Origin: Sedimentisphaerales bacterium
GTDB lineage: Bacteria; Planctomycetota; Phycisphaerae; Sedimentisphaerales; Anaerohalosphaeraceae
Length of the DNA: 64,000 bases
NCBI GenBank assembly: GCA_028282905.1
Contig: JANQGW010000070.1
Span: 1 to 64,000 of the forward strand
Direction: 5' to 3'
Part shown: piece by piece, positions 11,412-36,456 of the stretch
How the letters are laid out: every line of letters begins with the position of its first letter
Position numbering within the stretch: position 1 is the first letter of the stretch
Program-made: the position numbers and the translations under genes
Notes under the pieces: generated by a model
What the model saw: the letters and a program-made list of their open reading frames with translations, nothing else
Databases searched by the model: none
What the model was told of the DNA's origin: nothing

Positions 11412-11412
11412 T

Positions 11413-12775: not shown

Positions 12776-12808
12776 CCATCGAATTGAACCATTGGGATGG
12801 ACATTATA

Positions 12809-14062: not shown

Positions 14063-14337
14063 AAGTTACTGTAAACTATATGGGACAGTTAAAGGCGGCC
14101 GCAGGCAAAGGCTCAGAGATCATTGAATGCTCCGATGACGCTGCTTTGAGTGATCTGCTGGCTGCGGCGGCCGGTCAATACGGCAGCAGTTTTGTTAATA
14201 TTATTCAGGATGAAACCGGCGCAATTCGCCCGTCTCTGATTGTCATCATCAACGATGTTACAGCCAACAAAGATGCGTCTCCGTCGTTGTCAGATGGCGA
14301 CACGGTAACCCTGTTGACAGCAATTGCGGGGGGATAG
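14059..14337 (+). CDS. moaD: MoaD-like sulfur carrier
   Basis: A 92-aa beta-grasp protein ending in Gly-Gly ('VTLLTAIAGG'), the C-terminus that is adenylated and thiocarboxylated in sulfur carriers. It would donate sulfur to precursor Z in molybdopterin synthesis, together with MoaE, which is not in the window. The 'IIVNDV..NKDASPSLSDGDTVTLL' pattern is like MoaD ('I.VNG......L.DGDEV'). The start overlaps the ThiF-like gene (ATGA) and the MoeB-like gene starts 10 bases after it. Confidence 0.88.
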   Translation: MKVTVNYMGQLKAAAGKGSEIIECSDDAALSDLLAAAAGQYGSSFVNIIQDETGAIRPSLIVIINDVTANKDASPSLSDGDTVTLLTAIAGG

Positions 14338-14347
14338 GAGAGCGACG

Positions 14348-15109
14348 ATGACCGAGTGGACACAACCCCAAAAATTAACGGATGAAGAACGCGCCACCTA
14401 TGAATGGCAAATGTGGGTACCCGGCTATGGCGAAGCGGGGCAGGAAAAACTCAAAGGCGCAACAGCCTTGGTTTCCCGATGCGGCGGCCTTGGCAGTCCT
14501 GTTGCGTTGGAGCTTGCCGCCGCGGGAATCGGCAAATTAGTAATTGCTCACGGCGGAAATGTCAAACACAGCGACCTGAATCGACAGTTGCTGATGACCT
14601 ACGACTGGCTTGGTAAACCGCGCGTCGAGTCGGCCGAAAGACGGTTGAAAGAACTGAACCCCCGGCTGGAGGTTGAGGCAGTCGCGGAAAACATCAATGA
14701 AGCCAATGCCGCAGAGCTTGTCGGCATGGCCGATATTGTGTTTGATTGTGCGCCGCTGTTTACCGAACGTTTTCTCATGAACCGGGAATGTGTTCGGCAG
14801 GGTAAGCCCCTGATCGAATGCGCGATGTACAGTCTGGAAGGGCAGGTCACGACGATCATCCCGGGCCAGACGCCGTGTCTGACGTGCATATACCCGGAAG
14901 ACCCGCCCGCATGGAAAAGAGAGTTCCCGGTCTTTGGCGCCGTCTCAGCGCTGGCAGGAAATATAGGAGTGATGGAAGGAATTAAATTGATCAGCGGGAT
15001 GAAGCCGGCCCTGGCCGGGAAGATGTTATATTATGATACAGAAGCGATGACATTTCAGAGAATCGCGATCTCCCGCAATATAGACTGTCCTATCTGCCGC
15101 GATATTTGA
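14348..15109 (+). CDS. MoeB/HesA-like sulfur-carrier adenylyltransferase
   Basis: A 253-aa E1-like enzyme that should adenylate the MoaD C-terminus. It has the nucleotide-binding loop 'SRCGGLGSPVALELAAAGIG', the 'HSDLNRQLL' segment (Asp and Arg of the ATP site) and two CxxC pairs ('CLTC' and 'CPIC') that bind structural zinc. The acceptor Cys lies in the 'PCLTCIYP' region. The ATG at 14348 has an AGGAG site 7 bases before it, and an upstream GTG/TTG-type start would overlap moaD. It is the last gene of the operon that begins at 5918. HesA-like copies next to MoaD often accompany aldehyde:ferredoxin oxidoreductase genes, but none is present here. Confidence 0.87.
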   Translation: MTEWTQPQKLTDEERATYEWQMWVPGYGEAGQEKLKGATALVSRCGGLGSPVALELAAAGIGKLVIAHGGNVKHSDLNRQLLMTYDWLGKPRVESAERRLKELNPRLEVEAVAENINEANAAELVGMADIVFDCAPLFTERFLMNRECVRQGKPLIECAMYSLEGQVTTIIPGQTPCLTCIYPEDPPAWKREFPVFGAVSALAGNIGVMEGIKLISGMKPALAGKMLYYDTEAMTFQRIAISRNIDCPICRDI

Positions 15110-18280: not shown

Positions 18281-21200
18281 ATGTACAGAATTACGACTCA
18301 TCCGATTTTAGATGTAACAGAAAAGCAGAAGGTCAGCTTTATGTATAATGGCCATCGTATTGATGGTGAGAAGGGCTTTACGATTGCCGCCGCACTGCAT
18401 CAGGCCGGCTTTCCGGTTCACAGCCACAGTTTAAAAAATCGAAAGCGCAGCCTGGAATGCGGCATCGGTAAATGCGGGGCCTGCGAAATGCTGGTGGACG
18501 GCCAGATCAAACGCATTTGTATTACTAAAGTTGATGATGTCAAAGAAGTCGGTGATATTCCGCTTGATTACGAACCATCACCTCAATTGCCTGCGAATCC
18601 CGCGTCGATTAATGTTTATAAAACAACCGTTGCGATTATCGGTGCCGGCCCGGCCGGTCTTGCCGTCCGCGAAACACTGAACAAGGCGGGCGTGCCTAAT
18701 ATCGTTGTAGATAACAACGGCCATATCGGTGGTCAGTTTCTTATGCAGACGCACTCGTTTTTCTTTTTTGAAAAGGAAAAAAAATTCGGCGGTATGCGGG
18801 GATTTGATATTGCCGATTCACTGGCGGGTGACAATCCTGATGATATCTTTTTGAACAGTACCGTTTGGGATATCCTCGAAGGCCAGCGGTTGGCCATCAA
18901 AAATATTGTCACCGATGAGATTTATCATATTGACGCCGAGTTTCTGGTCGTTGCCGCCGGTGCGGTGCCGTTTATGCCGCCGTTTGAAAATGACGATCTG
19001 CCGGGCGTTTATACCGCGGCGGTCATTCAAAAAATGATGAACACAGAGTTTACCCTGCTGGGTAAAAACGTGCTGACAGTCGGCGCCGGTAACATTGGCT
19101 ACCTGACTTCCTATCAACTGACACAAGCCGGCGCCAAGGTCAAGGCTATTCTTGAAGCCCAGCCGGCCGCTGGCGGTTTTCCCGTTCAGGCCAACCGTGT
19201 CCGTCGCCTGGGAATTCCGATTTTACTGGAGCATGTGCTTATCAAGGCCATTCCCAATGAAAATCACGATGGGATTACCGGGGCCGTTGTCGCCCGTGCG
19301 GAAAATTTCAAGCCGGTTCCCGGAACGGAAAAAATCATCACTGGTATCGAGGCAATCAATATCTGCACCGGGCTTGTACCGGACGATACGCTGCTGCGAA
19401 AAGGGTTTGAGGTTTTCGGCCGCAACTGCTACGGCGCCGGCGATACGCTGCGAATCGGCGAAGGCACCAGTGCCGTGCTGCGGGGAACACAGGTTGCCTA
19501 TGAAATCCTGCAGGAGTTGAATCTCGATTACGATTATAATCAGTACTTAGCGGTTTCCAAGGAATACATCGACTCTCAGCAGCATCCGATCCGGGTGCTG
19601 GAGAAACCGCATCTGCCTTCCGAAGAGCGAATGCAAAAACCGTTTGTGCTGATCGACTGTCTTTACGGCTTTGCGTGCAACCCCTGTGCATTTGCCTGTC
19701 CGTTCGGGGCGATTCGCAAAAGCTCCACCAGTTCCGTTCCGCAGATTGATTATGAAAAATGTACCGGCTGTATGCAGTGTATCAGCCTGTGTCCGGGACT
19801 GGCAATTTTCGGTTATGATGTAAAAAAACAGATTCTGCACCTTCCCATTGAACGTGAAGTGGATGAAGGGCATGAAGTCTTCTTAGTTGACAACGACGGC
19901 CGGAAATGCGGCATGGGCAGAGTTCTGAAAGTTCAGAAAAAGCCCACCAAGATACATGTTGCCAGAGTGCAGGTTACTGAATTGCAGGCCGACGATTTGC
20001 TGCAGGTGCGTGGATTCCTCATGGCCGAAGAATGCCCCGACCCAATTATATTTGAGCCGAATACGCAGGACATTGATGCCGAAACCTATATCTGCCATTG
20101 TGATGATGTTAAGCTGGACGAAATTTTAAAGGTCATTGGCGACCGGAAATTTATTTCAATTGACGAAATCAAACACACGACCCGCTTGGGCATGGGGGCC
20201 TGCCGGGGCAAACGCTGTATCGGCCGCTTGAAGCCGATTTTAGCAGGATTAGGTATTTCAACCGTCGGCGAAGCGACTCCCCGCGCACCGCTGTCTAATC
20301 AGGTGACAATGGGCGAGCTGTATCAAAAAGATTCCGCCCAGACTCTGCATGTAAAAAGTACCGGGCCTGTGATTGAAACCGAGTATTTCATAGCCGGCGG
20401 CGGTATCGGCGGAAGTGCCTTGTTCCGCTATTTAGCTGAATCCGGAAAAAAGCCGCTGATGGTCAATTACGGTCACGGTTCTTCCTGGCGGAACATCGCG
20501 GGCGGCCGGACGGTATTTACGCTGCCGGAGTTGAGCGAAATTGCCGTACAAAACAAAATTATCTTTGAGGAATTACAGACGCTAAAAAACATTGACTATT
20601 GTCCGACGCAGTATGTGACCTTTGCTAACGATCAGCAGAGTTACGATGTGCTGGAGGCGTCAATTGCCTGGTCGGATGCCAAGATGGTCGAGCCGAAGGA
20701 TTTTCAGCGGACCATCAGCCCTTATATGAATCCGCAAAACACCAAGTATATCGCTGCTCTGATTACGCAGAATTGCTGGCAGGCCTCACCGGGTAAACTG
20801 GTCGATTTGATTCGTACTATCGGTGTCGAACAGGGCGGTCGCGTGATGGAGGATTGTGAACTGGTTGACGTTGAGCGAGACGGCGACGGTTTTACCGTGC
20901 TGCTGCGGGACCATACACGACAATATCGTACCTGTCGAACACGTTACTTTATTAACGCACTCGGAAGCGAGGCCGAGCAGTTTTCCAATAAACTGGGCTA
21001 TAACACGGGCCTGTATCCGGTTAAGCACCAGGCGTTTATCACCCGGCGGATGCCGTTTATGGGCGTTGACGGAAAGCCCTTGGGAATGCTGATTGACCGC
21101 CGCAATTACAAAGGCTTTGTCGCGGTGTACGGCCAGCAGCTTCTGGAAACGGGCCAGATCATCGGCTGCGCGACACCGCAGATCGACCCGCAGGAGACCA

Positions 21201-21502
21201 ATAAGAATCTCAAAATCAATTCCGACGATTTTGTCCGTATTATTTCCGAAATCTTCGTCGATTGGATCCCCGAATTGTCCTCGGTCGGCCTGCAGGCCGT
21301 CTGGGCGGGCAATTATGTGGAGCCGCGGATGATTATCGACCCGGATAAGGGGCTTTTCGTCGGCCTTCGAGGCCAGGGCTTCATGCTGGCGCAGTACCTG
21401 GCCAAGCTGTATGTCGATAAGCTGTTGGGCAAGCCGGTTCCGGCTTATTTTGCCCGACTGGCTTTAGAGGGTGACGGTTTACTGGAAAAAGCCCTCAAAT
21501 AG
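18281..21502 (+). CDS. Fused iron-sulfur flavoprotein amine dehydrogenase (HcnA-HcnB-HcnC type in one chain)
   Basis: A 1073-aa cytoplasmic enzyme joining modules that are normally separate subunits. Residues 15-95 form an HcnA-like [2Fe-2S] domain (C60, C65, C68, C80). Residues 115-450 form an FAD/NAD(P) disulfide-reductase-like domain (GAGPAG at 121-126 and a second dinucleotide loop 'TVGAGNIGYL'). Residues 455-510 carry two iron-sulfur motifs (C461/C466/C469/C473 and C494-x2-C497-x2-C500-x3-C504). Residues 600-650 form a BFD-like [2Fe-2S] domain (C605-x-C607, C641-x4-C646). Residues 700-1073 are a DAO-type FAD oxidase/dehydrogenase (GGGIGG from 706). Three-subunit relatives oxidise proline, D-hydroxyproline, sarcosine, opines or glycine. 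The neighbouring P5C dehydrogenase makes proline or D-hydroxyproline the likely substrate, by inference. Confidence 0.87.
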   Translation: MYRITTHPILDVTEKQKVSFMYNGHRIDGEKGFTIAAALHQAGFPVHSHSLKNRKRSLECGIGKCGACEMLVDGQIKRICITKVDDVKEVGDIPLDYEPSPQLPANPASINVYKTTVAIIGAGPAGLAVRETLNKAGVPNIVVDNNGHIGGQFLMQTHSFFFFEKEKKFGGMRGFDIADSLAGDNPDDIFLNSTVWDILEGQRLAIKNIVTDEIYHIDAEFLVVAAGAVPFMPPFENDDLPGVYTAAVIQKMMNTEFTLLGKNVLTVGAGNIGYLTSYQLTQAGAKVKAILEAQPAAGGFPVQANRVRRLGIPILLEHVLIKAIPNENHDGITGAVVARAENFKPVPGTEKIITGIEAINICTGLVPDDTLLRKGFEVFGRNCYGAGDTLRIGEGTSAVLRGTQVAYEILQELNLDYDYNQYLAVSKEYIDSQQHPIRVLEKPHLPSEERMQKPFVLIDCLYGFACNPCAFACPFGAIRKSSTSSVPQIDYEKCTGCMQCISLCPGLAIFGYDVKKQILHLPIEREVDEGHEVFLVDNDGRKCGMGRVLKVQKKPTKIHVARVQVTELQADDLLQVRGFLMAEECPDPIIFEPNTQDIDAETYICHCDDVKLDEILKVIGDRKFISIDEIKHTTRLGMGACRGKRCIGRLKPILAGLGISTVGEATPRAPLSNQVTMGELYQKDSAQTLHVKSTGPVIETEYFIAGGGIGGSALFRYLAESGKKPLMVNYGHGSSWRNIAGGRTVFTLPELSEIAVQNKIIFEELQTLKNIDYCPTQYVTFANDQQSYDVLEASIAWSDAKMVEPKDFQRTISPYMNPQNTKYIAALITQNCWQASPGKLVDLIRTIGVEQGGRVMEDCELVDVERDGDGFTVLLRDHTRQYRTCRTRYFINALGSEAEQFSNKLGYNTGLYPVKHQAFITRRMPFMGVDGKPLGMLIDRRNYKGFVAVYGQQLLETGQIIGCATPQIDPQETNKNLKINSDDFVRIISEIFVDWIPELSSVGLQAVWAGNYVEPRMIIDPDKGLFVGLRGQGFMLAQYLAKLYVDKLLGKPVPAYFARLALEGDGLLEKALK

Positions 21503-21685: not shown

Positions 21686-22432
21686 ATGAATCTTTCTCAA
21701 GCACAATTGATGTTTTTTGAGCAGCTTTTTGAACCCTTTACCGGCGAATCACTCTTTGACCAGTTGACGGATTTGGTCTTTTTCATCAAAAACTCGAAGG
21801 GCCAGTATGTTGTGGTCAATCAGGCGTTAGTGGAACGCTGCGGGTTTAAGTCCAAAGAGGAGTTGATCGGGCGCAAGCCCGAAGAGGTCTATCCCAATCC
21901 TTTTGGCCAAGAGTACCGCCAGCAGGACGAAGAGATTCTCAGCCAGGGCAAGCCGATCATCAATAAGCTGGAGCTTCAAATTGCCGCATCGCTGGATTTG
22001 TGCTGGTGTTTGACTACGAAGGTGCCGCTTCACGGCCAGGACCGCTCCATTGTCGGGATTGCCGGTGTTTCACGCGATTTGAAGCGATACGACAAGAAAA
22101 GCGAGGACTACGGTCGGATCGCCGAATCGGTCACCTTTATCAAGGAACACTATTCTGAGACGCTTAAAGTGGACGAGTTGGCGAAAATGGTGGACATGTC
22201 CACATACCGTTATGAGCAGCGCATGCAGAAGATTTTCTCGCTGACCGCCGGCCAGTTCATCCAGAAAACGCGCATCGAAGCCGCTTTATGGCAGCTTCGG
22301 GAAACCACTAACCCGGTGATTCATATTGCGCTGGATTGCGGCTATGCCGACCAGAGCGCATTTTCACGCCAGTTTAAAAAGACAATTGGACTTTCTCCGG
22401 TCAGATACAGACAAATCTTCAGCGAAAAGTAG
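21686..22432 (+). CDS. PAS-domain AraC-family transcriptional regulator
   Basis: A 248-aa cytoplasmic regulator. Residues 20-125 form a PAS sensor ('LTDLVFFIKNSKGQYVVVNQALVERCGF' region, then 'GRKPEEVYP'), and residues 145-248 are an AraC/XylS double helix-turn-helix with the ending 'GYADQSAFSRQFKKTIGLSPVRYR'. It sits between the fused dehydrogenase and the glycyl radical enzyme genes, so it probably controls one or both in response to a small molecule or redox state bound by the PAS domain. PAS-AraC proteins of this size are frequent in Planctomycetota and Verrucomicrobiota. The 17-bp dyad at 18186 is a candidate site, but this is untested. Confidence 0.87.
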   Translation: MNLSQAQLMFFEQLFEPFTGESLFDQLTDLVFFIKNSKGQYVVVNQALVERCGFKSKEELIGRKPEEVYPNPFGQEYRQQDEEILSQGKPIINKLELQIAASLDLCWCLTTKVPLHGQDRSIVGIAGVSRDLKRYDKKSEDYGRIAESVTFIKEHYSETLKVDELAKMVDMSTYRYEQRMQKIFSLTAGQFIQKTRIEAALWQLRETTNPVIHIALDCGYADQSAFSRQFKKTIGLSPVRYRQIFSEK

Positions 22433-22511: not shown

Positions 22512-23516
22512 ATGTGTCCTGTCATGCATCGGTTTGCCGACAGCATCTGCGTTTTCGAGTCGAATTCACAGCATTTTTTGAGGTTGAAAGGTTTGACACA
22601 AACGGCACGGGACATCACTGGGATTGTCTTTGACATCAAGAAATACGCCATCCATGATGGTCCGGGTATCCGTACAACCGTTTTTATGAAGGGCTGTCCC
22701 CTGCGATGCCGATGGTGTCATAATCCGGAAAGCTGGTCGGCCGGCCCTGAGTTGATGTTCTCCAATGCCCGCTGCATTCGGTGCGGCGATTGCGTGCGAA
22801 GCTGCCCTCAAAAGGCGATTGCCATGACCAATGGGCAGTGCCCGGAAACGGATGCCTCTTTATGTACATTTTGCGGCCAATGTGTCGAAGTATGCCCGAC
22901 CCAGACACGAAAAATTGCCGGTTTTACCGTGACTGTCGATCAGGTCATGCGGGAAGTGCTGAAGGATTCCGTTTTTTATGATGAATCGGGCGGCGGCGTC
23001 ACCTTTTCCGGCGGCGAACCGCTGGCTCAGCCGATTTTTCTGAGAGCGGCCCTGAGTCGCCTTCGGCAGGTTGGGTTGCATACGGCAGTGGATACCTGCC
23101 TGTATGCGCCGCAGTCAGTAGTGGAAGATATTGTGCCTGAGACAGACTTGTTTTTATGCGATCTCAAGCATATCGATAGTGAAAAGCATCACGAATGGAC
23201 CGGCTGCGAGAACAGTCAGATTCTTGACAATTTAAAATATCTCGCCGCCGCCGGTGCGGAAATCATTGTAAGAATTCCGGTGGTTCCCGGTTTTAATGAT
23301 ACCGCTGAGGAGATAAAGAATCTCGCTACCTTTATTGAGTCGCTGCAAACCGTCCGGCAGGTCAATCTTCTGGTCTATAACAGCGGCGGCGTCTCCAAAG
23401 GCCAACGGCTGCTGGAGTCTAAGGATATTCTGCAGTGCCGGCTGCCGGAGGCAGCGAAAATGAAAGAACTGGAAGAAATCGTGGAAAGTTTTGGCTTTCA
23501 AGTGAAAGAAGGTTAA
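22512..23516 (+). CDS. Glycyl radical enzyme activase (radical SAM)
   Basis: Up to 334 aa. It installs the glycyl radical in the enzyme encoded 4 bases downstream. The radical SAM cluster motif C62-x3-C66-x2-C69 ('CPLRCRWC') follows 'DGPGIRTTVFMKG', and an inserted pair of [4Fe-4S] ferredoxin motifs ('CIRCGDCVRSCP', 'CTFCGQCVEVCP') is typical of activases for dehydratases and decarboxylases but not of PflA. 'TFSGGEPLAQP' is the SAM-binding GGE motif. The start is uncertain: homologues begin near 'TARDITGIVFDIKKYA', and a TTG at 22593 preceded by GAGG would give 307 aa. Confidence 0.92.
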   Translation: MCPVMHRFADSICVFESNSQHFLRLKGLTQTARDITGIVFDIKKYAIHDGPGIRTTVFMKGCPLRCRWCHNPESWSAGPELMFSNARCIRCGDCVRSCPQKAIAMTNGQCPETDASLCTFCGQCVEVCPTQTRKIAGFTVTVDQVMREVLKDSVFYDESGGGVTFSGGEPLAQPIFLRAALSRLRQVGLHTAVDTCLYAPQSVVEDIVPETDLFLCDLKHIDSEKHHEWTGCENSQILDNLKYLAAAGAEIIVRIPVVPGFNDTAEEIKNLATFIESLQTVRQVNLLVYNSGGVSKGQRLLESKDILQCRLPEAAKMKELEEIVESFGFQVKEG

Positions 23517-23520: not shown

Positions 23521-25884
23521 ATGAACGAACGGATTACAAAACTTCGCAATCAAAGTGTTCAGGCCCGGCCCTATATCAGCGACGAACGGGCCCAATTAGT
23601 GACCGCGTTTTACCAAAGCGGTGTGGCTATGCAGAATTCTGCGCCGGTCACACGAGCCATGGCACTGAAATATATCATGGAAAACAAGGCCATCTGTGTC
23701 AATGACGATGAATTGATTGTCGGCGAACGCGGCCCGGCCCCGAAGGCAACGCCCACCTATCCCGAGTTGTGTTGCCATACCCTGAACGATTTTGACGTGA
23801 TGAGTGCTCGCCAGCGAACGGCATTTGATGTCAGCGATGACGTCAAGCAGGTGTACGCCGATACGATTATCCCGTTCTGGCAGGGCAAAACCATGCGGGA
23901 AAAGGTCTTTGCCGCTATGAACGATAACTGGCAGCAGGCGTTCGAGGCAGGGGTGTTTACCGAATTTATGGAACAGCGTGCCCCCGGCCATGCCATTCTC
24001 GACGGAAAAATTTACACCCGCGGCCTCCTGGATTTCCAGGACGATATCCGCCAGCACCTGCGCAGCCTGGACTATCTCAACGACCCCGAGGCTTACGATA
24101 AACAGCAGCAGCTCAAGGCCATGTCGATTGCGATTGACGCGGTTCTGATTTTGGCGTCTCGTTATGCCGACAAATGCGAAGAACTGGCTAAAACCGAAGG
24201 CAACGCCGTCCGGAAGCAGGAACTGGAGCAGATGGCCGCGATTTGCCGTCATGTGCCCGCCTATGCGCCGCGTACCTTCCACGAGGCTTTGCAGGCCTAT
24301 TGGTTTGTCCATCTGGGCGTGATAACCGAACTGAATGTCTGGGATTCTTACAACCCGGGCCGGCTGGATCAGCATTTAGGTCCGTTTTACGCCGCCGAGA
24401 AAGCCGCCGGGGCAATGGATGAAGATAAGGCATGCGAACTGCTGCAATGCTTCTGGGTAAAATTCAACAATCAGCCCGCACCGCCCAAGGTCGGCATCAC
24501 CGAAGAACAGAGCGGCACCTATACCGATTTTGCCCTGATTAACGTTGGCGGCGTCGATCCCAAGACCGGCGGCGACGCGGTCAATGACGTGTCATTTCTG
24601 ATTCTGGACGTGGTCGAAGAAATGCAGTTGGTTCAGCCAAGTGCCTGCATCCAGATCAGCGCCAAAAATCCCGACCGGTTCGTCAAACGGGCCTGCAAGG
24701 TCATCAAGACCGGCCTCGGCCAGCCGTCGGTGTTCAATACCGATGTGATTATCCGCGAAATGCTGCACGACGGCAAGAACATGGAAGATGCCCGCACCGG
24801 CGGCCCCAGCGGCTGCGTGACCATCAGCGCTTTCGGTAAAGAAAGCTGCACGCTGACCGGCTACTGCAACTGGCCGAAAATCCTCGAACTGGCGATGAAC
24901 AACGGCCTTGACCCGCGTACGGGCAAACAGATTGGCCCCGAAACCGGCCCAATATCTGAACTGACCAGTTTCGATGACATAATGGAAGCCTACCGCAGAC
25001 AATTAAAATATTTCCTCGATTTAAAAGTCGAAGGCAACAACGTCATCGAGCGGCTGTATGCTAATTACATGCCCAGCCCGTTTATGTCGGTCCTCGTCGA
25101 TGACTGCATCAAACGCGGCAAGGACTATCACAACGGCGGCCCGCGCTACAATCCGACCTATATCCAGGGCGTCGGACTCGGTACCCTGACCGATGCACTG
25201 ATGGCGATGAAATATCATGTCTTTGACCGGCAGAATATTGCGATGGACGAACTGACCGCCGCACTGGCGACGGATTTTGAAAATAACGAAAAGCTCCGGC
25301 TGCTGCTGGAAAATCAAAGTCCCCGCTACGGCTGTGACGATAATTACGCAGACGATATCGCGGTTGAAGTCTTTAATATTTACTATGACCTGCTCAACGG
25401 CCGGCCCAATACCAAAGGCGGTCGCTACCGCGTCAACCTGCTGCCGACGACGGTGCATATCTATTTCGGGCAGGTCACCGGCGCACTGCCGCACGGCCGC
25501 AGGGCGGGTGTTCCGCTGTCGGACGGCATTTCGCCGACACAGGGCACCGATTCGCACGGCCCGACCGCGGTCGCCAAGTCTGCCGCGAAAATCGACCACG
25601 CCCGCACCGGCGGAACGCTGCTGAATATGAAATTCAACCCGCAGGTGCTGGAAGGCGCGGGGCTGGATAAAATGACCGGACTGATCCGCGGCTACTTCCG
25701 ACTCGACGGCCACCACGTCCAGTTCAATGTGATTGATAAGGAAACCCTGCTGGCCGCCCAGCAAAACCCCGCCGACTACAAAGACCTCATCGTCCGCGTC
25801 GCCGGCTACAGCGACTACTTCATCGACCTCGGCACCGACCTCCAAAACGAAATCATCGCCCGAACCGAAATGACAGAACTTTAG
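23521..25884 (+). CDS. Glycyl radical enzyme, HypD-like (4-hydroxyproline dehydratase family?)
   Basis: A 787-aa glycyl radical enzyme. The radical-bearing loop is 'RVAGYSDYF' with Gly762, and the thiyl Cys is Cys432 in 'GPSGCVTIS'. The flanking sequence 'AFGKES..LTGYCN.PKILELAMNNG', the 'RAPGHAILDGKIY' segment (His157) and 'ITELNVWDSYNPG' (Asp275) resemble trans-4-hydroxy-L-proline dehydratase HypD, whose known catalytic His, Asp, Cys and Glu are H160, D278, C434 and E436 in Clostridioides difficile. Here the Glu two residues after the Cys is Thr434. HypD makes 1-pyrroline-5-carboxylate, the substrate of the dehydrogenase encoded next, which supports a hydroxyproline role. The missing Glu means the true substrate may differ. 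Confidence 0.85.
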   Translation: MNERITKLRNQSVQARPYISDERAQLVTAFYQSGVAMQNSAPVTRAMALKYIMENKAICVNDDELIVGERGPAPKATPTYPELCCHTLNDFDVMSARQRTAFDVSDDVKQVYADTIIPFWQGKTMREKVFAAMNDNWQQAFEAGVFTEFMEQRAPGHAILDGKIYTRGLLDFQDDIRQHLRSLDYLNDPEAYDKQQQLKAMSIAIDAVLILASRYADKCEELAKTEGNAVRKQELEQMAAICRHVPAYAPRTFHEALQAYWFVHLGVITELNVWDSYNPGRLDQHLGPFYAAEKAAGAMDEDKACELLQCFWVKFNNQPAPPKVGITEEQSGTYTDFALINVGGVDPKTGGDAVNDVSFLILDVVEEMQLVQPSACIQISAKNPDRFVKRACKVIKTGLGQPSVFNTDVIIREMLHDGKNMEDARTGGPSGCVTISAFGKESCTLTGYCNWPKILELAMNNGLDPRTGKQIGPETGPISELTSFDDIMEAYRRQLKYFLDLKVEGNNVIERLYANYMPSPFMSVLVDDCIKRGKDYHNGGPRYNPTYIQGVGLGTLTDALMAMKYHVFDRQNIAMDELTAALATDFENNEKLRLLLENQSPRYGCDDNYADDIAVEVFNIYYDLLNGRPNTKGGRYRVNLLPTTVHIYFGQVTGALPHGRRAGVPLSDGISPTQGTDSHGPTAVAKSAAKIDHARTGGTLLNMKFNPQVLEGAGLDKMTGLIRGYFRLDGHHVQFNVIDKETLLAAQQNPADYKDLIVRVAGYSDYFIDLGTDLQNEIIARTEMTEL

Positions 25885-26496: not shown

Positions 26497-28125
26497 TTAT
26501 CCCATGAACGGATAGGTATAATCCGTCGGCGGGATGAAGTTTTCTTTGATCGTCCGGGTGGAAACCCATCGCAGCAGGTTCTGCATCGAGCCGGCTTTGT
26601 CATTGGTTCCGCTGCCGCGGCCGCCGCCAAACGGCTGCTGACCCACCACTGCGCCGGTCGGCTTGTCGTTGATGTAGAAGTTGCCGGCAGTATGACGCAG
26701 TTTGTTAGAAGCCGTTTCGATAGCATAGCGATCCCGGGCGAAGACACAGCCGGTCAAGGCGTACATGCTGGCGGTGTCGCACAGTTCGAGCGCCTTGTCA
26801 AAGTCGGCATCTTCATAGACATACGCCGTCAGTACCGGGGCAAAGATCTCATCGACCATGGACTCATACGTCGGGTTGGTCGTGACAATCATCGTCGGCT
26901 CGATAAAGTAGCCGCTGCTGTCATCACAGGTGCCGCCGAATACAACCTCGGCATCCGAAGCGGCCTGAGCGTTTTCGATGTACTTTTTCGCATTATTGAA
27001 CGAGGACTGGTCGATCACGGCGTTCATGAAATTGCCAAAGTCCTGAACCGGACCCATCTTGATCGTTTTCAGTTGAGCGATGACCTTTTCCTGTACTTCC
27101 GGCCACAGGCTCTTCGGAATATACATCCGCGACAGGGCCGAGCACTTCTGGCCCTGGTACTCGTAAGCCCCGCGAACAATGGCCGTGGCCATTGCGTCAA
27201 CATCCGCCGATGGGTGAGCGACCATAAAGTCCTTGCCGCCGGTTTCGCCGACAATCCGCGGATACGACTTGTACTGGTGGATGTTGTCGCCGATCATCTT
27301 CCACATATTCTGGAATACCTCGGTGCTGCCGGTAAAGTGGATGCCCGCAAACAGCGGAGACGCCATGACCGGATCGCCCACCTGGCCGCCTGAGCCGGGG
27401 ATAAAGTTGATCACGCCGTCCGGCAGACCCGCTTCCTGCAGGAGCTTCATGGTAAAGTAGCCAGAATAAACCGCGGTCGAGGCCGGTTTCCACAGGATGG
27501 TGTTACCCATCATCGCCGGGGCGGTCGGCAGGTTGCCGCCGATAGCCGTGAAGTTAAACGGCGTGACCGCAAAGATGAACCCTTCCAGCGGGCGGTATTC
27601 AACACAGTTCAAAATCCCGTTCGGCGAATACAGCGGCTGGTCCTTATACAGTTCCTGCATGAAATACGTATTAAAACGCCAGAAGTCGATCAGCTCGCAG
27701 GCACTGTCAATCTCCGCCTGAAAGGCGCTCTTGCTCTGGTTGAGCATCGTCGCGGCGTTCAGCGTATAGCGGTATTTGGTCGCCAGCAGTTCAGCAGCCT
27801 TGATAAAGACCTTGGCCCGGTCAATCGCCGGAAGGGCTTCCCACTCGGCCTTAGCAGCCTGGGAGGCTTCGATCGCCATCTGAACCTCTTTTTCGCCGGC
27901 CTTGTGATAGGTGGCCAGCACATTCTGATGGTTATGCGGTTCAACGCAGGTGCCGGTATTGCCGGTTTTGATCTCTTTGCCGCCAATAATCAGCGGAATC
28001 TCAATCTGCTGGCCGCCCAGACGCTCCAGTTCAGCTTTCAGCAGTTCACGCTCCGGCGTGCCGGGGGCATACGAATAGATCGGTTCATTGGTTGGTTTTG
28101 GAATGTTACTTATGCTGTTCTGCAT
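26497..28125 (-). CDS. 1-pyrroline-5-carboxylate dehydrogenase
   Basis: A 542-aa aldehyde dehydrogenase of the P5C dehydrogenase class (RocA/ALDH4-like), oxidising 1-pyrroline-5-carboxylate (as glutamate semialdehyde) to glutamate with NAD+. Catalytic Cys328 lies in 'YEYQGQKCSALSR', a motif typical of P5CDH. 'VGETGGKDFMVAHPSADVD' holds the general-base Glu and 'FTGSTEVFQNMWK' the NAD-binding loop. The length fits the stand-alone eukaryote-like ALDH4 form without a proline dehydrogenase domain. An AAGGGG ribosome site lies 8 bases before the ATG. It is the metabolic bridge between the dehydrogenase/glycyl radical genes on its left and the glutamate mutase operon on its right. Confidence 0.93.
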   Translation of the reverse strand: MQNSISNIPKPTNEPIYSYAPGTPERELLKAELERLGGQQIEIPLIIGGKEIKTGNTGTCVEPHNHQNVLATYHKAGEKEVQMAIEASQAAKAEWEALPAIDRAKVFIKAAELLATKYRYTLNAATMLNQSKSAFQAEIDSACELIDFWRFNTYFMQELYKDQPLYSPNGILNCVEYRPLEGFIFAVTPFNFTAIGGNLPTAPAMMGNTILWKPASTAVYSGYFTMKLLQEAGLPDGVINFIPGSGGQVGDPVMASPLFAGIHFTGSTEVFQNMWKMIGDNIHQYKSYPRIVGETGGKDFMVAHPSADVDAMATAIVRGAYEYQGQKCSALSRMYIPKSLWPEVQEKVIAQLKTIKMGPVQDFGNFMNAVIDQSSFNNAKKYIENAQAASDAEVVFGGTCDDSSGYFIEPTMIVTTNPTYESMVDEIFAPVLTAYVYEDADFDKALELCDTASMYALTGCVFARDRYAIETASNKLRHTAGNFYINDKPTGAVVGQQPFGGGRGSGTNDKAGSMQNLLRWVSTRTIKENFIPPTDYTYPFMG

Positions 28126-28759
28126 AATGCGTTCCCCTTAATAATTAGCGTTGATATTTGTCCACAATAAAAAAGAAGCCGAGTCTGAAAACACTGTCTT
28201 CTGCATTTATCATCACATCTTCAGTCCAGGGTATTCATAGATCAAGCGGTGATAAACCAAGGTCGTTGGCTGCATCCTGCTTTCATTCTCGGCTGAAAAG
28301 TCTCAGGGCTGCCGAAAACAGGTCTTTGTCTAAGCCCGTTTCCATCGGCGTTGCTTCTGTTGCGATAAGCCAATAAGCCGCTCTCTACCGAGTGCCATAG
28401 TGTAATCGGCGGCCGGCCCATCGTCTTGTTTGGAGCCGGAGTAAAAACTTAATTTTCTGCACAATCAATTTTACGCCAAAAAGCATTAATAAAAAAACTA
28501 ACCGAACAATGGTTTTGTGTCAAGATTGATTGTCAAAATCTCCGATGTAGTGGGTTAGAGCTTTCTTGGAATTAAAAAAAGAAAGAAAAACAAAATTTGC
28601 CGATATTCAAGTTATTTGTGAAGTATCAGACAAGACATTGATGTCTCTATTTGACATGATGGAATTAGGACAGGGAGTTAATAATATAAACGGTGCAAAA
28701 GGTCACAAGCTGGGACAAACTGAGTCTTGGAATTTCGGTTAGAGGGTAATCACAAAATC
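28126..28759. promoter_or_regulatory. Divergent promoter region between P5C dehydrogenase and the glutamate mutase operon
   Basis: About 630 bases with no convincing gene. A 6-2-6 dyad AGACAT-TG-ATGTCT lies at 28633-28646, directly before a TTGACA hexamer (28651-28656), and makes a plausible activator or repressor site for the glm operon. No riboswitch consensus was recognised, including cobalamin. The stretch 28141-28440 has protein-like codon use in places on the minus strand but is interrupted by stops. Confidence 0.4.
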
Positions 28760-29224
28760 ATGAAAGAGGATACGGTTATCTTGGGAGTCATCGGCTCCGA
28801 TTGCCATGCCGTGGGCAACAAAATTCTGGAGAGGGTTTTCGCCGAGGCAGGATTTCACGTGGTCAATCTGGGCATCATGGTCAGCCAGCAGGAGTTCATC
28901 GACGCGGCCATTGAAACCAACGCGAAGGCCATCCTGATTTCTTCACTCTACGGACAGGGGGAACTGGATTGCGACGGCATGCGGAGCAAGTGCATCGAAA
29001 TGGGGCTGGACGACATCCTTCTCTATGTTGGGGGTAATCTGGTCATCGGTAAGACCGATTTTAAAATTGTCGAGCAAAAATTCCTTAATATGGGGTATGA
29101 TCGCGTATTTAAACCGGAAGATGATCTTCAGCAGGCGGTGCAGCTGCTCAAGAAGGATATCACCCAAAAGAAGGTAAACGCCCTGCAAGCCGGTCAAGAT
29201 GAACGCCGAACCAAAGCATCCTGA
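28760..29224 (+). CDS. glmS: Glutamate mutase (methylaspartate mutase) small subunit, cobalamin-binding
   Basis: A 154-aa adenosylcobalamin-binding subunit that, with GlmE, rearranges L-glutamate to (2S,3S)-3-methylaspartate. The base-off motif D-x-H-x-x-G is 'SDCHAVG', with the cobalt-ligating His at residue 16 when translation starts at the ATG 28760, the same number as in Clostridium tetanomorphum GlmS. 'SSLYGQGELDC' and 'LYVGGNLVIG' are further family motifs. An in-frame TTG upstream is less likely. The C-terminus has a Lys/Gln-rich extension relative to the usual 137 aa. It overlaps the start of glmL by 26 bases. Confidence 0.95.
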   Translation: MKEDTVILGVIGSDCHAVGNKILERVFAEAGFHVVNLGIMVSQQEFIDAAIETNAKAILISSLYGQGELDCDGMRSKCIEMGLDDILLYVGGNLVIGKTDFKIVEQKFLNMGYDRVFKPEDDLQQAVQLLKKDITQKKVNALQAGQDERRTKAS

Positions 29225-30650
29225 ACACGTCATCAGTCTCGATATTGGCTCAACATTTACCAAAGCAGCACTGTTTAAGGTAAATGATGAACAATTGAAG
29301 TTTCAGCAGTCGGCCCGCGCAGCTACCACGGTGGACTCTCTGATACGGGGTGTCCGACAGGTTGTCAAAGAGCTGGGTTGCCTGGACTCTCGGACCGACC
29401 GGTCGGCGTATCCGGTCTTCTTTTCCTCCTCGGCCAAGGGCGGCCTGCATGTAGTTGCCGTGGGGATCGTACCGGAACTGACCCTGAAGGTGGCCCGGTT
29501 AACGGCACTGTCAGCCGGTGCCCGGGTAACTCAATCATTCGGCTATAAGCTGACCGACCGCGATATCCGGGAGATCGAAGGCCTGTCGCCGGATATTATC
29601 CTGCTTTCGGGCGGGACCGATGGCGGTAATGAAGTCTATGTCCGCCATAATGTCAAATTGCTGGCCGGGATGAAGTCCCGGCCGCAGATTATCTATGCCG
29701 GCAACCAGGTGATGTGTGATGAAGTCTGCAAGTTACTGTCTGATTTCCCCGTACATGCCGTTTCAAATATCCTGCCCGAACTGGACCGGCCTTGTGTGCA
29801 GCAGGCCCGGGATAAGATTTGCGAGGTCTTTCTGGAAACTATCGTCTCCGGCAAGGGGCTTGGCGATGTGATCGATTGGCTCGGCGCAACGCCGATTCCG
29901 ACTCCGCTGGCGGTGATGGAACTGGTCGAGGCCGTTCGCGAAAGCTGTCCGCAGTGGGGCGATTTCTGTCTGCTGGATATGGGCGGTGCGACGACTGATT
30001 TTTACTCGGCCTGCCGGGATGACCGCACTGAATCCGACGTTATTTATCGGGGCATTCCCGAACCGGCGATCAAACGAACGGTTGAGGGCGACCTAGGCAT
30101 TCGAGTCAATGCCTCCTCCGTAATAATGGCGGGCAGTGAGTTCCTGCAGGAGTCCAAGAGTACCGACGAGTTAGTGGCACTGATGGACTATGTTGACAAA
30201 ATCACACAACGGACGGATTTTCTGCCGCAGACTTCACGTCATCGGGAACACGACCGCCTGCTGGCTGAAATTTGTATGACACAGGCTGTTAAACGTCATG
30301 CCGGTGTGCGAAAACGTGTTTTTACTGAACGCGGCGAAACATTTATACAAACCGGAAAAGACCTGCGTCCCCTCCGGAAGATGATTCTAACCGGCGGCTT
30401 TTTCAGCGGTCTGACTGAGCCGGACTTTTCCGGCCAATTTCAGGCTCAGATCAAAGCAGTTAACCGGCCGGATAGTGATCAGATTTATTTGGTGCCGCGG
30501 GATATTCAATATTTTCAGGATAACGTTTATTTACTGCCGCTGCTGGGCAACCTGGTACGAGGCTATCGGGGCCGGGCGGCACAGACGGCAATACACCATT
30601 TGACGCTTTTGCCATCACATTGTCATCAATCAACGGAGAGTGCATGTTGA
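29199..30650 (+). CDS. glmL: GlmL (MutL) glutamate mutase-associated ASKHA ATPase
   Basis: A 483-aa protein of the MutL family with the actin/hexokinase/Hsp70 ATPase fold: phosphate-1 motif 'SLDIGSTFTKAAL' and phosphate-2 'LLDMGGATTDFYS'. MutL-type proteins lie between glmS and glmE in classical clusters and are thought to reactivate the mutase by exchanging damaged cobalamin. The start codon lies inside the end of glmS and the last codons overlap glmE, so the three are translationally coupled. The order S-L-E matches Clostridium clusters. Confidence 0.94.
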   Translation: MNAEPKHPEHVISLDIGSTFTKAALFKVNDEQLKFQQSARAATTVDSLIRGVRQVVKELGCLDSRTDRSAYPVFFSSSAKGGLHVVAVGIVPELTLKVARLTALSAGARVTQSFGYKLTDRDIREIEGLSPDIILLSGGTDGGNEVYVRHNVKLLAGMKSRPQIIYAGNQVMCDEVCKLLSDFPVHAVSNILPELDRPCVQQARDKICEVFLETIVSGKGLGDVIDWLGATPIPTPLAVMELVEAVRESCPQWGDFCLLDMGGATTDFYSACRDDRTESDVIYRGIPEPAIKRTVEGDLGIRVNASSVIMAGSEFLQESKSTDELVALMDYVDKITQRTDFLPQTSRHREHDRLLAEICMTQAVKRHAGVRKRVFTERGETFIQTGKDLRPLRKMILTGGFFSGLTEPDFSGQFQAQIKAVNRPDSDQIYLVPRDIQYFQDNVYLLPLLGNLVRGYRGRAAQTAIHHLTLLPSHCHQSTESAC

Positions 30651-32089
30651 CAAAAACGCAGAAAATTGAGCTGTCGGATTTCCACGAGCAGCGGCAAGAG
30701 GTACTTGGCGGTTGGCCGACCGGCCGGGAGGTTGACCTCGACCATGCCATCGAATATCAGAAGGCCTTGCCCGATGCCAAGCGGTTTTCGCTGGCCATGA
30801 AAACCGCCGAACAGCAGGGCTCGCTTCTGCTCCAACCGCGTGCGGGCGTGGCACTTGTGCCGGAGCATATTGCACTGCTGAAGTTTCTGGAAAAGCACTG
30901 TGACCTGCTGCCGACGACGATTGATGCCTACACGCGTCAGAATCAGTACCAGGAAGCGGAAAAAGGCATTGCCAAATCGTCCGGTTCGGGTCAGTCCTTT
31001 TTAAACGGCTTTCCCGCGGTCAATCACGGTTTGGCTGCCTGTCGCGAGGTCGTCGAAAGCGTCAGCAAACCGCTTCAGGTCCGTCACGGTACACCGGATG
31101 CCAGGCTGCTGGCGGAAATTACGCTGGCAGCGGGCTTCACCGCCTATGAAGGCGGCGGTATTTCCTACAACATACCCTATACCAAAAAAGTGCCGCTGGA
31201 AAAGTCCATTCGTGACTGGCAGTACGTGGACCGTTTGATTGGCGTGTATGAGGAGGCGGGCGTCACGATAAATCGTGAGCCGTTTGGCCCGCTGTCGGGA
31301 ACGCTGGTGCCGCCGTTTATCAGCCATACCGTAGGGATCATCGAGGGTCTGCTGGCGCTGGAGCAGGGGGTTCGCTCCATTACGCTGGGATACGGGCAAT
31401 TGGGTAATCTCATTCAGGATGTTGCCGCGATTCGAAGCCTGAAAGAGCTGGCCAACGAGTATTTCCAAAAGCATGGCTATACTGATTATGAACTGTCCAC
31501 GGTATTACATCAGTGGATGGGCGGTTTTCCTGAAAAAGAAACAAAAGCCTACTCGGTCATCACCTGGGGTGGTGCTGCGGCGGTCTTTTCCGGGGCGACC
31601 AAAGTGATTATCAAAACTCCTCATGAGGCGATGGGCATTCCCACCAAGGAAGCCAACGCCCAGGGATTGGAATCCACCCGGCAAATTGCCAATATGCTCA
31701 AGGACCAGTATCTGCCCGAATCAGAGGAACTGAAAACGGAAATCGAACTGATCAAACAGGAAGTTCGCACGGTCATGGACAAGGTGCTGGAACTGGGTGC
31801 CGGCGATTTGACCGCCGGGGCCGTCCGGGCGTTTGAAGCGGGTGTGATCGATATCCCGTTCTCGGCTTCAATCTACAATAAAGGTAAACTGCTGTCGGTT
31901 CGAGACAATCATGGGGCCATTCGCATCTTTGAAAAGGGTAGTGTGCCGATGGCCGATTCCGTCTATGCCTTTCATGCCGACAAACTTTCAGAACGTGCCG
32001 CTATCGAGGGTCGCGAGCCTTGCTTCCAGATGGTAGTGGATGATATTTATGCGATCAGTAAAGGATGTTTAGTGGGGAGACCTCGATGA
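30644..32089 (+). CDS. glmE: Glutamate mutase (methylaspartate mutase) large subunit
   Basis: The 481-aa TIM-barrel catalytic subunit that binds glutamate and the upper face of adenosylcobalamin. The ATG at 30644 follows GGAGAG at 30635-30640 and gives a length close to the 483 aa of characterised GlmE. Family landmarks include 'QPRAGVAL', 'VRHGTPDARLL', 'GGISYNIPYTKKVPLEKSI', 'EPFGPLSGTLVPPFISH', 'HQWMGGFPEKE' and 'TKVIIKTPHEAMGIPT'. Arg residues in the first motifs correspond to the substrate-carboxylate clamp of the family. It overlaps glmL at the start and mal at the end. Confidence 0.96.
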   Translation: MLTKTQKIELSDFHEQRQEVLGGWPTGREVDLDHAIEYQKALPDAKRFSLAMKTAEQQGSLLLQPRAGVALVPEHIALLKFLEKHCDLLPTTIDAYTRQNQYQEAEKGIAKSSGSGQSFLNGFPAVNHGLAACREVVESVSKPLQVRHGTPDARLLAEITLAAGFTAYEGGGISYNIPYTKKVPLEKSIRDWQYVDRLIGVYEEAGVTINREPFGPLSGTLVPPFISHTVGIIEGLLALEQGVRSITLGYGQLGNLIQDVAAIRSLKELANEYFQKHGYTDYELSTVLHQWMGGFPEKETKAYSVITWGGAAAVFSGATKVIIKTPHEAMGIPTKEANAQGLESTRQIANMLKDQYLPESEELKTEIELIKQEVRTVMDKVLELGAGDLTAGAVRAFEAGVIDIPFSASIYNKGKLLSVRDNHGAIRIFEKGSVPMADSVYAFHADKLSERAAIEGREPCFQMVVDDIYAISKGCLVGRPR

Positions 32090-33363
32090 AGATTCAATCA
32101 GTCGTATTTTCGGCCGGAAGAACCGGTTTTTTCTTTGACGATCAAGCAGCGGTTAAAGCAGGATTACCGCGGGATGGGTTTTGGTATCAGGGCCATCCGG
32201 TGACCGACGGTTTTAAAAGTGTCCGCCAGGCCGGTGAATCCATCTCCGTGATGCTGGTTTTAGAAGATGGTCAAGTGGCAGTGGGTGATTGTACCGCAGT
32301 GCAGTACTCCGGTGCCGGCGGACGCGATCCTCTATTTTTGGCTGAAACTTATATCCCGTTTTTAGATGAACATATTCGTCCACTGCTGGAAGGTGCTTCA
32401 GTTGATGCCTTCCGGCCATTGGCTGAGATGCTGGACACTTTGGAAGTCGATGGCAGACGAATTCATACCGCTCTGCGGTATGGTTTGTCGCAGGCAGCAC
32501 TGGATGCCGTTGCTAAATCACAGAATATGCAGAAGATTGAGGTTGTGTTGAATGAATACCAACTGCCGTTTGTGCCGAAGCCGGTGCCGATCTTTGCCCA
32601 GTCCGGCGATGACCGTTATTTGTGTGTCGATAAGATGATTATTAAAGAGGCCGATGTTCTGCCTCATGCCCTCATCAATAATATTGATGAGAAGCTTGGC
32701 AGAAACGGCGAAAAACTGAAGGAATATATCGTCTGGCTTAAAAACCGTATAGAATCATCCGATGCCTTTCCATCGTATCATCCAGATCTTCATATTGATG
32801 TTTATGGAACGATAGGTCAGATTTTCGAACATGACCCGGACCGTATCGCGGCCTATCTGGCAGAACTGGAAAAGGCTGCCGGCGATTTTGCCCTTTATAT
32901 CGAAGGTCCGGTGGACATGGGCCAAAAATCGGCACAGATTGAAGTCATGGGCCGGATTCGCAAAAGCCTTCAGGAGATCGGGTGCGGTGTCAAGCTGGTT
33001 GCCGACGAGTGGTGCAATACCTATGAAGATGTTCGGGACTTTACCGACAGCCAATGCTGTGACATGGTACAGATCAAAACACCGGATCTGGGTAGTATTC
33101 ATAATACGATTGAAAGCGTTCTCTATGCCAAACAAAATGGCATGGAAGCCTACCAAGGCGGTACCTGCAACGAGACAGATGTATCAGCCCGAACTTGTGT
33201 ACATCTGGCCCTTGCCACGCAAGCGGACCGGATGCTGGCCAAGCCCGGCATGGGGTTTGACGAGGGATATTGTATCGTCAAAAATGAAATGAATCGAGTG
33301 TTGAGTGTTTTAAGGCATAAAAGAGGTAAGAATTTAAATATACCGGAGGTAATGAATGGCTAG
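32086..33363 (+). CDS. mal: Methylaspartate ammonia-lyase
   Basis: A 425-aa enolase-superfamily enzyme removing ammonia from 3-methylaspartate to give mesaconate. Starting at the ATG 32086 (GGGGAG 6 bases upstream) places the two catalytic bases at His194 ('ADVLPHAL') and Lys331 ('MVQIKTPDLG'), identical to the numbering in characterised clostridial enzymes. This supports both the start and full activity. Mg2+ ligands are expected in 'LHIDVYGTIG', 'LYIEGPVDMG' and 'LVADEW'. The C-terminus is slightly longer than the usual 413 aa. It overlaps the SucC-like gene by 8 bases. Confidence 0.96.
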   Translation: MKIQSVVFSAGRTGFFFDDQAAVKAGLPRDGFWYQGHPVTDGFKSVRQAGESISVMLVLEDGQVAVGDCTAVQYSGAGGRDPLFLAETYIPFLDEHIRPLLEGASVDAFRPLAEMLDTLEVDGRRIHTALRYGLSQAALDAVAKSQNMQKIEVVLNEYQLPFVPKPVPIFAQSGDDRYLCVDKMIIKEADVLPHALINNIDEKLGRNGEKLKEYIVWLKNRIESSDAFPSYHPDLHIDVYGTIGQIFEHDPDRIAAYLAELEKAAGDFALYIEGPVDMGQKSAQIEVMGRIRKSLQEIGCGVKLVADEWCNTYEDVRDFTDSQCCDMVQIKTPDLGSIHNTIESVLYAKQNGMEAYQGGTCNETDVSARTCVHLALATQADRMLAKPGMGFDEGYCIVKNEMNRVLSVLRHKRGKNLNIPEVMNG

Positions 33364-34564
33364 AGTACTTGAAATCATTGGAAAAGAGATTTTAAAGAAG
33401 AATCGCATTCCGATCCCTGAATGTGAAGCTGCAAAAACTGTTGATCAGGCATGTGATGCTGCAGAGAGAATCGGTTATCCTGTTGTCATTAAAGCGCTCA
33501 TTACCGTTGGCAAACGGGGCAAGGCCGGCGCGGTGAAATTTGCCGGCAGTCGAACCGAAGTGCAGCAAGCGGCCAAAGAAATTTTGAACATGACCGTGCG
33601 GAATTTTCCTGTGGATCAACTGCTGATCGAACAGAAGCTCGACATCGCACAGGAACTCTACTTCTCAATCACATATGACTCGACCCGAAAAATGCCTGTG
33701 ATTATCGCAAGCAGCGAAGGCGGCGTCGATATTGAAGAGATTGCGGAAAAACACCCGGATAAGGTGTTTAAAGTACATGTTGACCCAATACGCGGATTTG
33801 AACAGTATCAGGCAAAAGAACTTGCTGCCGGGTTGGGCCTGAAGGGCAAGCAATTAGCAAAGGGAACCGTCCTTTTCTGGAGACTCTATAATGTCTTTAG
33901 AGATTATGACGCGACCATTTTGGAAATAAATCCAATCGCCATTACCGGCAGCGGAGATTTAGTGGCTGCGGCGATTCTGTTTGGTGCCGATGATGACGCA
34001 CTTTACCGGCAGCCTGATCTTTCAGAAAGAGTCGAATCCGGCAGTGACCGGTCATGGCGACCTCTTACTGATCTTGAAAAACAGATGGTCGCCGTTGATG
34101 AAGCGGATGCGTATCGAGGTACCGCACGCTATACTGAAATGGACGGTGGCGATATCGGTTTCTTGTGCGGTGGAGGCGGAGGCAGCCTTCTGGCCTTTGA
34201 CGCACTCCTGGCCCACGGCGGTCAGCCTGCCAACTATACCGAACTGGGCGGCAATCCCCCTCAGAACAAAGTCGCGGGTCTGGTCAAAGGCGTCTTGTCA
34301 AAACCCGGCGTCAAAAGCCTCTTTGTGGCGCTCAATATAACCAACAATACCCAGACCGATGTCTTGGCAAAAGGGATTGTGCAGGCCTTTGAGGAACTTG
34401 GCATCGACCCTGCCGCTTATCCAACCGTGGCACGTCTGGCCGGCGTCAATGACGATGAGGCAAGGACGATAGCAAGCGAGGCAGGGATTGAGTATTATGG
34501 TGATGAAATCACAATTGATGACGCCGCACGGATTATGTGCGAAAAAATGAAATCTATGGTATAG
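33356..34564 (+). CDS. SucC-like acyl-CoA ligase beta subunit (proposed citramalate- or mesaconate-CoA ligase)
   Basis: A 402-aa ATP-grasp protein like the beta subunits of succinyl-CoA and malyl-CoA ligases. The N-terminal ATP-grasp domain (about 1-235) includes 'PVVIKALITVGKRGKAGAVKFAG' and the metal-binding 'ILEINPIAI'. The C-terminal CoA-ligase domain has 'GFLCGGGGGSLLAFDALL' and 'YTELGGNPPQNKV'. A GGAGG site lies 6 bases before the ATG. It sits next to an alpha subunit and a CitE-like lyase and not with TCA-cycle genes. With methylaspartate-pathway genes upstream, activation of citramalate (or mesaconate) is the best inference, by analogy with malate-CoA ligase plus malyl-CoA lyase. Confidence 0.85.
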   Translation: MARVLEIIGKEILKKNRIPIPECEAAKTVDQACDAAERIGYPVVIKALITVGKRGKAGAVKFAGSRTEVQQAAKEILNMTVRNFPVDQLLIEQKLDIAQELYFSITYDSTRKMPVIIASSEGGVDIEEIAEKHPDKVFKVHVDPIRGFEQYQAKELAAGLGLKGKQLAKGTVLFWRLYNVFRDYDATILEINPIAITGSGDLVAAAILFGADDDALYRQPDLSERVESGSDRSWRPLTDLEKQMVAVDEADAYRGTARYTEMDGGDIGFLCGGGGGSLLAFDALLAHGGQPANYTELGGNPPQNKVAGLVKGVLSKPGVKSLFVALNITNNTQTDVLAKGIVQAFEELGIDPAAYPTVARLAGVNDDEARTIASEAGIEYYGDEITIDDAARIMCEKMKSMV

Positions 34565-34575
34565 GAGAAGATACG

Positions 34576-36365: not shown

Positions 36366-36456
36366 AAAATCTTCTTGACGGGAAGGTTTGGCTGGAATAA
36401 TTTGAATGCGGTTTAACATGTGAAGATGTCGTCCATTTTGTCTATGAGGATTGATT

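Follow-up and report, generated by a model that had tools for sequence, protein, structure and literature searches.

Hydroxyproline, an amino acid of collagen, is the substrate of HypD, the trans-4-hydroxy-L-proline dehydratase, of which the Clostridioides difficile enzyme (PDB 6vxc) is the closest described counterpart of the protein considered here. Glutamate two residues after the thiyl cysteine, the CXE motif, is regarded as a hallmark of glycyl radical enzyme (GRE) eliminases. In C. difficile HypD this residue, Glu436, is hydrogen-bonded to the hydroxyl of hydroxyproline and lies 2.5 A from His160 (PMC7077986). Asp278 has been proposed to deprotonate the ring nitrogen and to protonate the leaving hydroxyl, while Glu436, with His160, was assigned the positioning of the hydroxyl and not an acid/base role; a glutamate acting as base is described in the same paper for other GRE eliminases, not for HypD itself. 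The variants E436Q, H160Q, D278N, D339N and S334A were all inactive in the assay used (PMC7077986).

The window analysed here is a 64,000-nucleotide stretch of contig JANQGW010000070.1 (assembly GCA_028282905.1) from a Sedimentisphaerales bacterium of the Planctomycetota (Anaerohalosphaeraceae), and it encodes a HypD-type enzyme in which this glutamate is replaced by threonine. Positions 331, 333, 436, 547 and 649 are given below in HypD numbering.

Identity of the enzyme and mapping of its residues

The open reading frame is intact, begins with ATG and encodes a complete glycyl radical enzyme of 787 residues. Its product scored 1234.1 bits against NCBIfam NF043068 (trans-4-hydroxy-L-proline dehydratase), above the equivalog cut-off of 1100, and its top PDB sequence match was 6vxc (1017 bits), with 55% identity over 781 alignment columns. 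An AlphaFold2 model, used for fold matching only (pLDDT 84 overall, but under 50 for the loops of the active site at 150-156, 326-335 and 642-647), also had 6vxc as its best fold match (TM 0.96 against chain A).

Alignment to 6vxc placed F149, H157, D275, S331, D336 and F337 of the window enzyme at HypD F152, H160, D278, S334, D339 and F340, and C432, T434, Y448, T643 and G762 at C434, E436, Y450, T645 and G765. The hydroxyproline-binding and acid/base residues (H160, D278, S334, D339, F340, Y450 and T645) are thus identical in the two enzymes, both radical residues are present, and every HypD residue tested by mutation is kept except Glu436. The assignment of Cys432, Gly762, His157 and Asp275 to HypD positions in an earlier sequence-only reading was correct in all its coordinates, as was the placing of Thr434 in the column of the motif glutamate. 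In place of CXE the enzyme reads Cys-Val-Thr, and the general feature of GRE eliminases, a glutamate two residues after the thiyl cysteine, is thereby absent. Judged by its sequence the enzyme is a variant of HypD and not a typical member, and it is filed as such because CXE is one of the features by which HypD is defined. It is the only HypD-type enzyme of its genome.

Distribution of threonine at position 436

A scan of species genomes yielded 47 loci, nearly all from Planctomycetota. Whole-genome searches added further loci from the window's own phylum and class and from the phyla to which one Clostridiaceae and one Bacteroidales member belong. Among the resulting 130 distinct HypD-type sequences, from which duplicates had been removed, position 436 was threonine in 43 and glutamate in 87, and no other residue occurred. 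The threonine codon was ACN in 43 distinct homologues, with all four third bases in use, which rules out sequencing error as its source; threonine-type genes were also found in single-contig genomes (G287, G311, G331, G707 and G723). In the phylum of the Clostridiaceae member, the threonine pattern was seen in none of 299 sampled genomes, 51 of which carried a HypD-type enzyme, and all aligned Clostridia-side and Bacteroidota loci had glutamate. No relative was found in the viral contigs searched. No account of threonine variants, and no characterised threonine homologue, was found in a literature search that missed most subscription papers.

The Cys loop of nearly all threonine sequences reads V-T-[IV]-S-[AS]-F-G-K at HypD columns 435-442, and E443 occurs in threonine and glutamate sequences alike, so a glutamate supplied by a neighbouring position of this loop is ruled out. 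Acidic residues were also gained across the threonine sequences at 196, 198, 419 and 617, none of them next to an active-site residue; only 331 and 332 adjoin one. The catalytic Cys, Gly, His, Asp and Ser are invariant in the 43 intact threonine sequences wherever these columns are covered. One planctomycete genome (G417) holds two HypD-type genes (L075 and L067), both with threonine at 436, one with proline and the other with threonine at 547.

Phylogeny of the exchange

A tree was built with columns 436, 451, 547 and 649 left out. All threonine sequences fell inside one planctomycete clade, where they were mixed with glutamate sequences; the window enzyme itself adjoined glutamate members of its own genus (L063 and L064, 76% identity), and a threonine and a glutamate member (L078 and L079) were 81% identical. 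Such interchange of threonine and glutamate inside one clade, seen among 130 sequences, is the new observation here. Seven Thr/Glu changes are needed on the tree, with the starred branches forcing at least five, and each step requires two base changes (GAR against ACN). Grouping the threonine sequences as a single clade cost 378 log-likelihood units (p-AU 1.4e-12), and a single threonine clade of single origin was rejected.

Under a two-state model the ancestor in common with the sister clade had glutamate (P(T) 0.03), while the base of the clade had threonine (0.91 with L104, 1.00 without it). Reversions to glutamate were inferred for L017, L047, L124 and a group of ten sequences, with L104 uncertain, and a regain of threonine for L078; the reversions to glutamate also lose Pro547. 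In the best fit, threonine arose once from glutamate, reverted four or five times and was regained once. L104, which is sister to the whole mixed clade, has Glu436 and Val438, yet already carries Glu331, Gln333 and Ala161; as an intermediate it can help to establish in what order the changes arose.

Changes around the active site and co-variation with position 436

Clade-defining columns were taken as those with one residue in at least 93% of sequences inside the clade and at most 6% outside. Ten were found. Seven of them are no more than three positions away from a residue known to belong to the HypD active site, an enrichment with p 7.5e-5 when set against columns of equal conservation, and the new subgroup suggested by the sequence-only reading is borne out as a distinct planctomycete clade with a site remodelled around the missing glutamate. 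The changes include T161A and V162I near His160, A/L331E and E333Q near Ser334, and G438S. All 72 sequences outside the clade have Thr at 161 and Glu at 333, the latter being Gln inside. Glu331 is present in 43 of 43 threonine sequences, in L104 and in all covered glutamate sequences of the clade, whereas each of the 72 remaining sequences has Ala or Leu. Because the glutamate members of the clade share the clade-defining changes, these came before or with the first threonine and outlasted the reversions. Some of them, Glu331 for example, may make threonine tolerable.

Two further positions follow threonine itself. Proline stands at position 547 in 38 of the 43 threonine sequences, being absent from the other five, and in none of the 87 glutamate sequences. 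Dependent evolution with 436 was compared with independent evolution by likelihood ratio (LRT) over 490 variable columns, each coded by its commonest residue and with separately fitted two-state models. Columns 649 (LRT 32.7) and 547 (30.6) ranked first and second, against 23.3 for the third, a 99th percentile of 20.6 and a median of 4.9. With column 547 coded as proline against any other residue the ratio was 39.8, but this coding was picked after the data had been seen, and 30.6 is the fair comparison. Block gene conversion moving 436, 547 and 649 together was rejected, since trees of the separate segments still need 6-9 Thr/Glu changes. Positions 547 and 649 are linked to 436 by co-variation, a statement about alignment columns and not about distances in three dimensions.

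Gene context

Features of the window and key codons of the HypD-type gene
Feature	Position	Strand	Basis
1073-aa fused flavo-iron-sulfur protein (Fer2_4, Pyr_redox_2, Fer4, BFD, DAO)	18281-21502	+	domains; top PDB match 1y56
PAS + AraC-type regulator, upstream	21686-22432	+	domain search
Radical SAM activase of the enzyme (CX3CX2C + ferredoxin-like clusters)	22512-23516	+	NCBIfam
HypD-type glycyl radical enzyme, Thr variant, 787 aa	23521-25884	+	NCBIfam NF043068; PDB 6vxc match; AlphaFold2 fold match
Codon of His157 (HypD His160), kept; neighbour Ala158	23989-23991	+	alignment
Codon of Asp275 (HypD Asp278, proposed acid/base), invariant	24343-24345	+	alignment
Codon of Glu328 (HypD 331), three residues before essential Ser331 (HypD Ser334)	24502-24504	+	alignment
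Codon of Gln330 (HypD 333)	24508-24510	+	alignment
Codon of thiyl Cys432	24814-24816	+	alignment
Codon of Thr434, replacing HypD Glu436	24820-24822	+	alignment
Codon of Pro545 (HypD Thr547), co-varies with Thr434	25153-25155	+	residue counts; LRT 39.8 (coding picked after data seen)
Codon of Ile647 (HypD 649), co-varies with Thr434	25459-25461	+	LRT 32.7, rank 1 of 490 columns
Codon of radical Gly762 in RVAGYSDYF	25804-25806	+	alignment
L-glutamate gamma-semialdehyde (P5C) dehydrogenase	26497-28125	-	TIGR01236, 800 bits against cut-off 614
Methylaspartate (glutamate) mutase subunit S	28727-29224	+	NCBIfam
GlmL-family protein	29199-30650	+	NCBIfam
Methylaspartate mutase subunit E	30620-32089	+	NCBIfam
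Methylaspartate ammonia-lyase	32065-33363	+	TIGR01502
Succinyl-CoA-ligase-like subunits	33356-34564, 34537-35481	+	family/domain matches
CitE/citramalyl-CoA-lyase-like protein	35478-36365	+	family/domain matches

The activase gave its best NCBIfam match to NF043069 (HypD activase) at 358 bits, below the cut-off of 425, and scored above the cut-off of TIGR02494. The fused flavo-iron-sulfur protein matched no NCBIfam family above cut-off; its nearest solved relative, PH1363 (1y56), belongs to an archaeal L-proline dehydrogenase as its alpha subunit. The product is likely an enzyme of the L-proline dehydrogenase type, and likely a one-polypeptide version of the multi-subunit L-proline (or sarcosine/hydroxyproline) dehydrogenases. 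In locus L143, a glutamate-type HypD is immediately followed by a stretch that is 38% identical to it. No PF01619 proline dehydrogenase was found elsewhere in the genome, and ProC is present. The gene set of the window would fit a route from proline and hydroxyproline through P5C and glutamate to acetyl-CoA and pyruvate. Closing the methylaspartate cluster, 36451-37389 (+) encodes a protein of 313 residues with no Pfam or NCBIfam match.

The activase gene precedes that of the HypD-type enzyme in most loci. The proline/glutamate cluster of the window does not lie beside the enzyme in its relatives. A P5C dehydrogenase lies directly downstream of a glutamate-type Clostridiaceae HypD (L033/L141). 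Many planctomycete loci, threonine and glutamate alike, have downstream genes for an M2 (ACE-like) peptidase, a sodium:solute symporter (SSF) and an M24 Xaa-Pro aminopeptidase-like protein, sometimes joined by a prolyl-oligopeptidase-family S9 protein. The operon of activase, GRE, M2 peptidase, SSF symporter and Xaa-Pro aminopeptidase was seen in threonine loci (L008, L011, L020, L045, L127 and L128) and in glutamate loci (L017, L041 and L047), with parts of it in glutamate-type loci of the sister clade (L093, L095 and L111) and of Bacteroidota (L159, L161 and L166), the Bacteroidota loci including the M24 gene.

Further out in the window, 8321-15109 (+) holds ABC transporter genes followed by ThiS/MoaD-like and MoeB/ThiF-like genes, and within it 8947-10566 matches SBP_bac_11 twice, an apparently doubled extracellular solute-binding domain. 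This region, directly upstream of GH116 and the proline genes, is probably a molybdate/tungstate uptake and cofactor cluster. A sulfatase gene (534-1886, -) and a gene for a 1468-residue right-handed beta-helix protein with pectate-lyase-like regions (41141-45547, -) would be polysaccharide-degradation genes flanking the amino-acid cluster.

Proposed working and alternative explanations

We consider, with a probability of about 0.7, that the window enzyme truly acts as a 4-hydroxyproline dehydratase, belongs to the HypD lineage and has threonine in place of the CXE glutamate in a co-adapted site. In favour are the retention of the other mutation-tested HypD residues, the equivalog score, the adjacent P5C dehydrogenase and glutamate mutase genes, the operon common to threonine and glutamate members, the repeated switching, the co-variation and the clustering of clade-defining changes at the active site. 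The activase would generate a glycyl radical on Gly762 that is passed to Cys432, whose thiyl would take hydrogen from C5 of hydroxyproline, while Asp275 would deprotonate the ring nitrogen and protonate the leaving 4-hydroxyl to give P5C. This product would be converted by the neighbouring P5C dehydrogenase to glutamate, from which the methylaspartate pathway would yield acetyl-CoA and pyruvate. The positioning of the hydroxyl, which in HypD falls to Glu436 with His160, could be taken over by the hydroxyl of Thr434 or by a water between it and His157, or else by a relocated Glu328. The earlier clade changes (T161A, V162I, A/L331E, E333Q and G438S) would have enabled the threonine state, as would Pro547 and Ile649, which track threonine; in an unadapted site threonine is expected to fail, because no activity could be detected for the E436Q variant of C. 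difficile HypD. Also counting against the reading are the five threonine sequences that lack Pro547 and the absence of the window's proline/glutamate genes from beside the enzyme in its relatives. That the exchange amounts to a repeatedly reversible natural switch, with dehydration proceeding without the CXE glutamate through a Thr-water-His arrangement or a carboxylate at 331 and with Pro547 switching alongside, we hold to be an evenly balanced proposition.

The sequence-only reading had taken the glutamate to be the base in dehydration and suggested another base or another substrate for the threonine form. The former view is right for other GRE eliminases and not for HypD, and a new base is not needed for the published chemistry, in which acid/base catalysis is proposed for Asp278 rather than for Glu436. 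Use of another hydroxyproline isomer or proline derivative (cis-4-hydroxy-L-proline, a D-isomer or an N-methylated form), whose hydroxyl would point away from 436 and make the glutamate unneeded, is improbable. While the remodelled surroundings of the active site and the existence of GREs for N-methyl-cis-4-hydroxyprolines (PDB 8id1 and 8iof) would suit such a change, every residue that binds the carboxylate or amine of trans-4-hydroxy-L-proline is retained, and threonine and glutamate members interchange within genera-level groups and have operons with Pro-directed peptidases in common. Furthermore, 8id1 keeps its glutamate (CVETN), so an N-methyl-cis substrate alone demands no threonine, and neither a racemase/epimerase nor a demethylase was recognised next to the window gene. 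It is most improbable that the threonine enzymes are relics, impaired or devoid of dehydratase activity, as the inactivity of E436Q might imply, given the many distinct intact sequences with invariant catalytic residues, the activases that usually adjoin them, the recurrence of co-ordinated changes and the threonine form of the sole copy in the window's genome.

A doubtful but weightier alternative is that the carboxylate has been relocated, Glu328, on the helix of the essential Ser334, replacing Glu436 with the chemistry unchanged and position 436 drifting between glutamate and threonine. The sequence-only reading had asked whether a neighbouring position supplies a glutamate; none does in the Cys loop, but the clade did gain this one three residues before Ser334, and the strict distribution of Glu331 argues in its favour. 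Free drift, however, predicts further residues at 436, where only two occur, and no tight partner, whereas Pro547 tracks threonine; the AlphaFold2 model has pLDDT below 50 at 326-335, so the direction of the side chain at 331 is unreliable in it. We retain, as the simplest reading, a hydroxyproline dehydratase with a co-adapted threonine site. Matched pairs such as L078 and L079 allow the role of the glutamate to be separated from those of Asp278 and His160. For annotation, the HypD label should not be equated with the CXE motif, and the findings point to anaerobic use of collagen or hydroxyproline proteins by planctomycetes of sediments and digesters.

Comparison with known systems

HplG, the hydroxyproline C-N lyase (7vua), has the same fold and acts on hydroxyproline, but is only about 30% identical to the window enzyme (398 bits against 1017 for HypD), and its reaction, C-N lysis according to the entry title, depends on downstream genes. 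The N-methyl-cis-4-hydroxy-L-proline and -D-proline dehydratases (8id1 and 8iof) have the same fold and are likewise glycyl radical dehydratases of hydroxyproline derivatives, with about 33% identity (464-476 bits, far below the 1017 bits for HypD). The glutamate-type HypD proteins of the same clade (L116, L117, L121, L119, L017 and L047) are 68-76% identical and carry the clade-defining residues, and several (L017, L041 and L047) sit in the peptidase/symporter operon; they differ in having Glu at 436 and Thr or Ser at 547. C. difficile HypD resembles the window enzyme in fold, in its substrate and acid/base residues other than Glu436, and in its adjoining activase and P5C-using genes, while the window enzyme departs from it in having Thr434 for Glu436, Pro545 for Thr547, Glu328 for Leu331, Gln330 for Glu333, Ala158 for Thr161, Ser436 for Gly438 and Cys443 for Tyr445.
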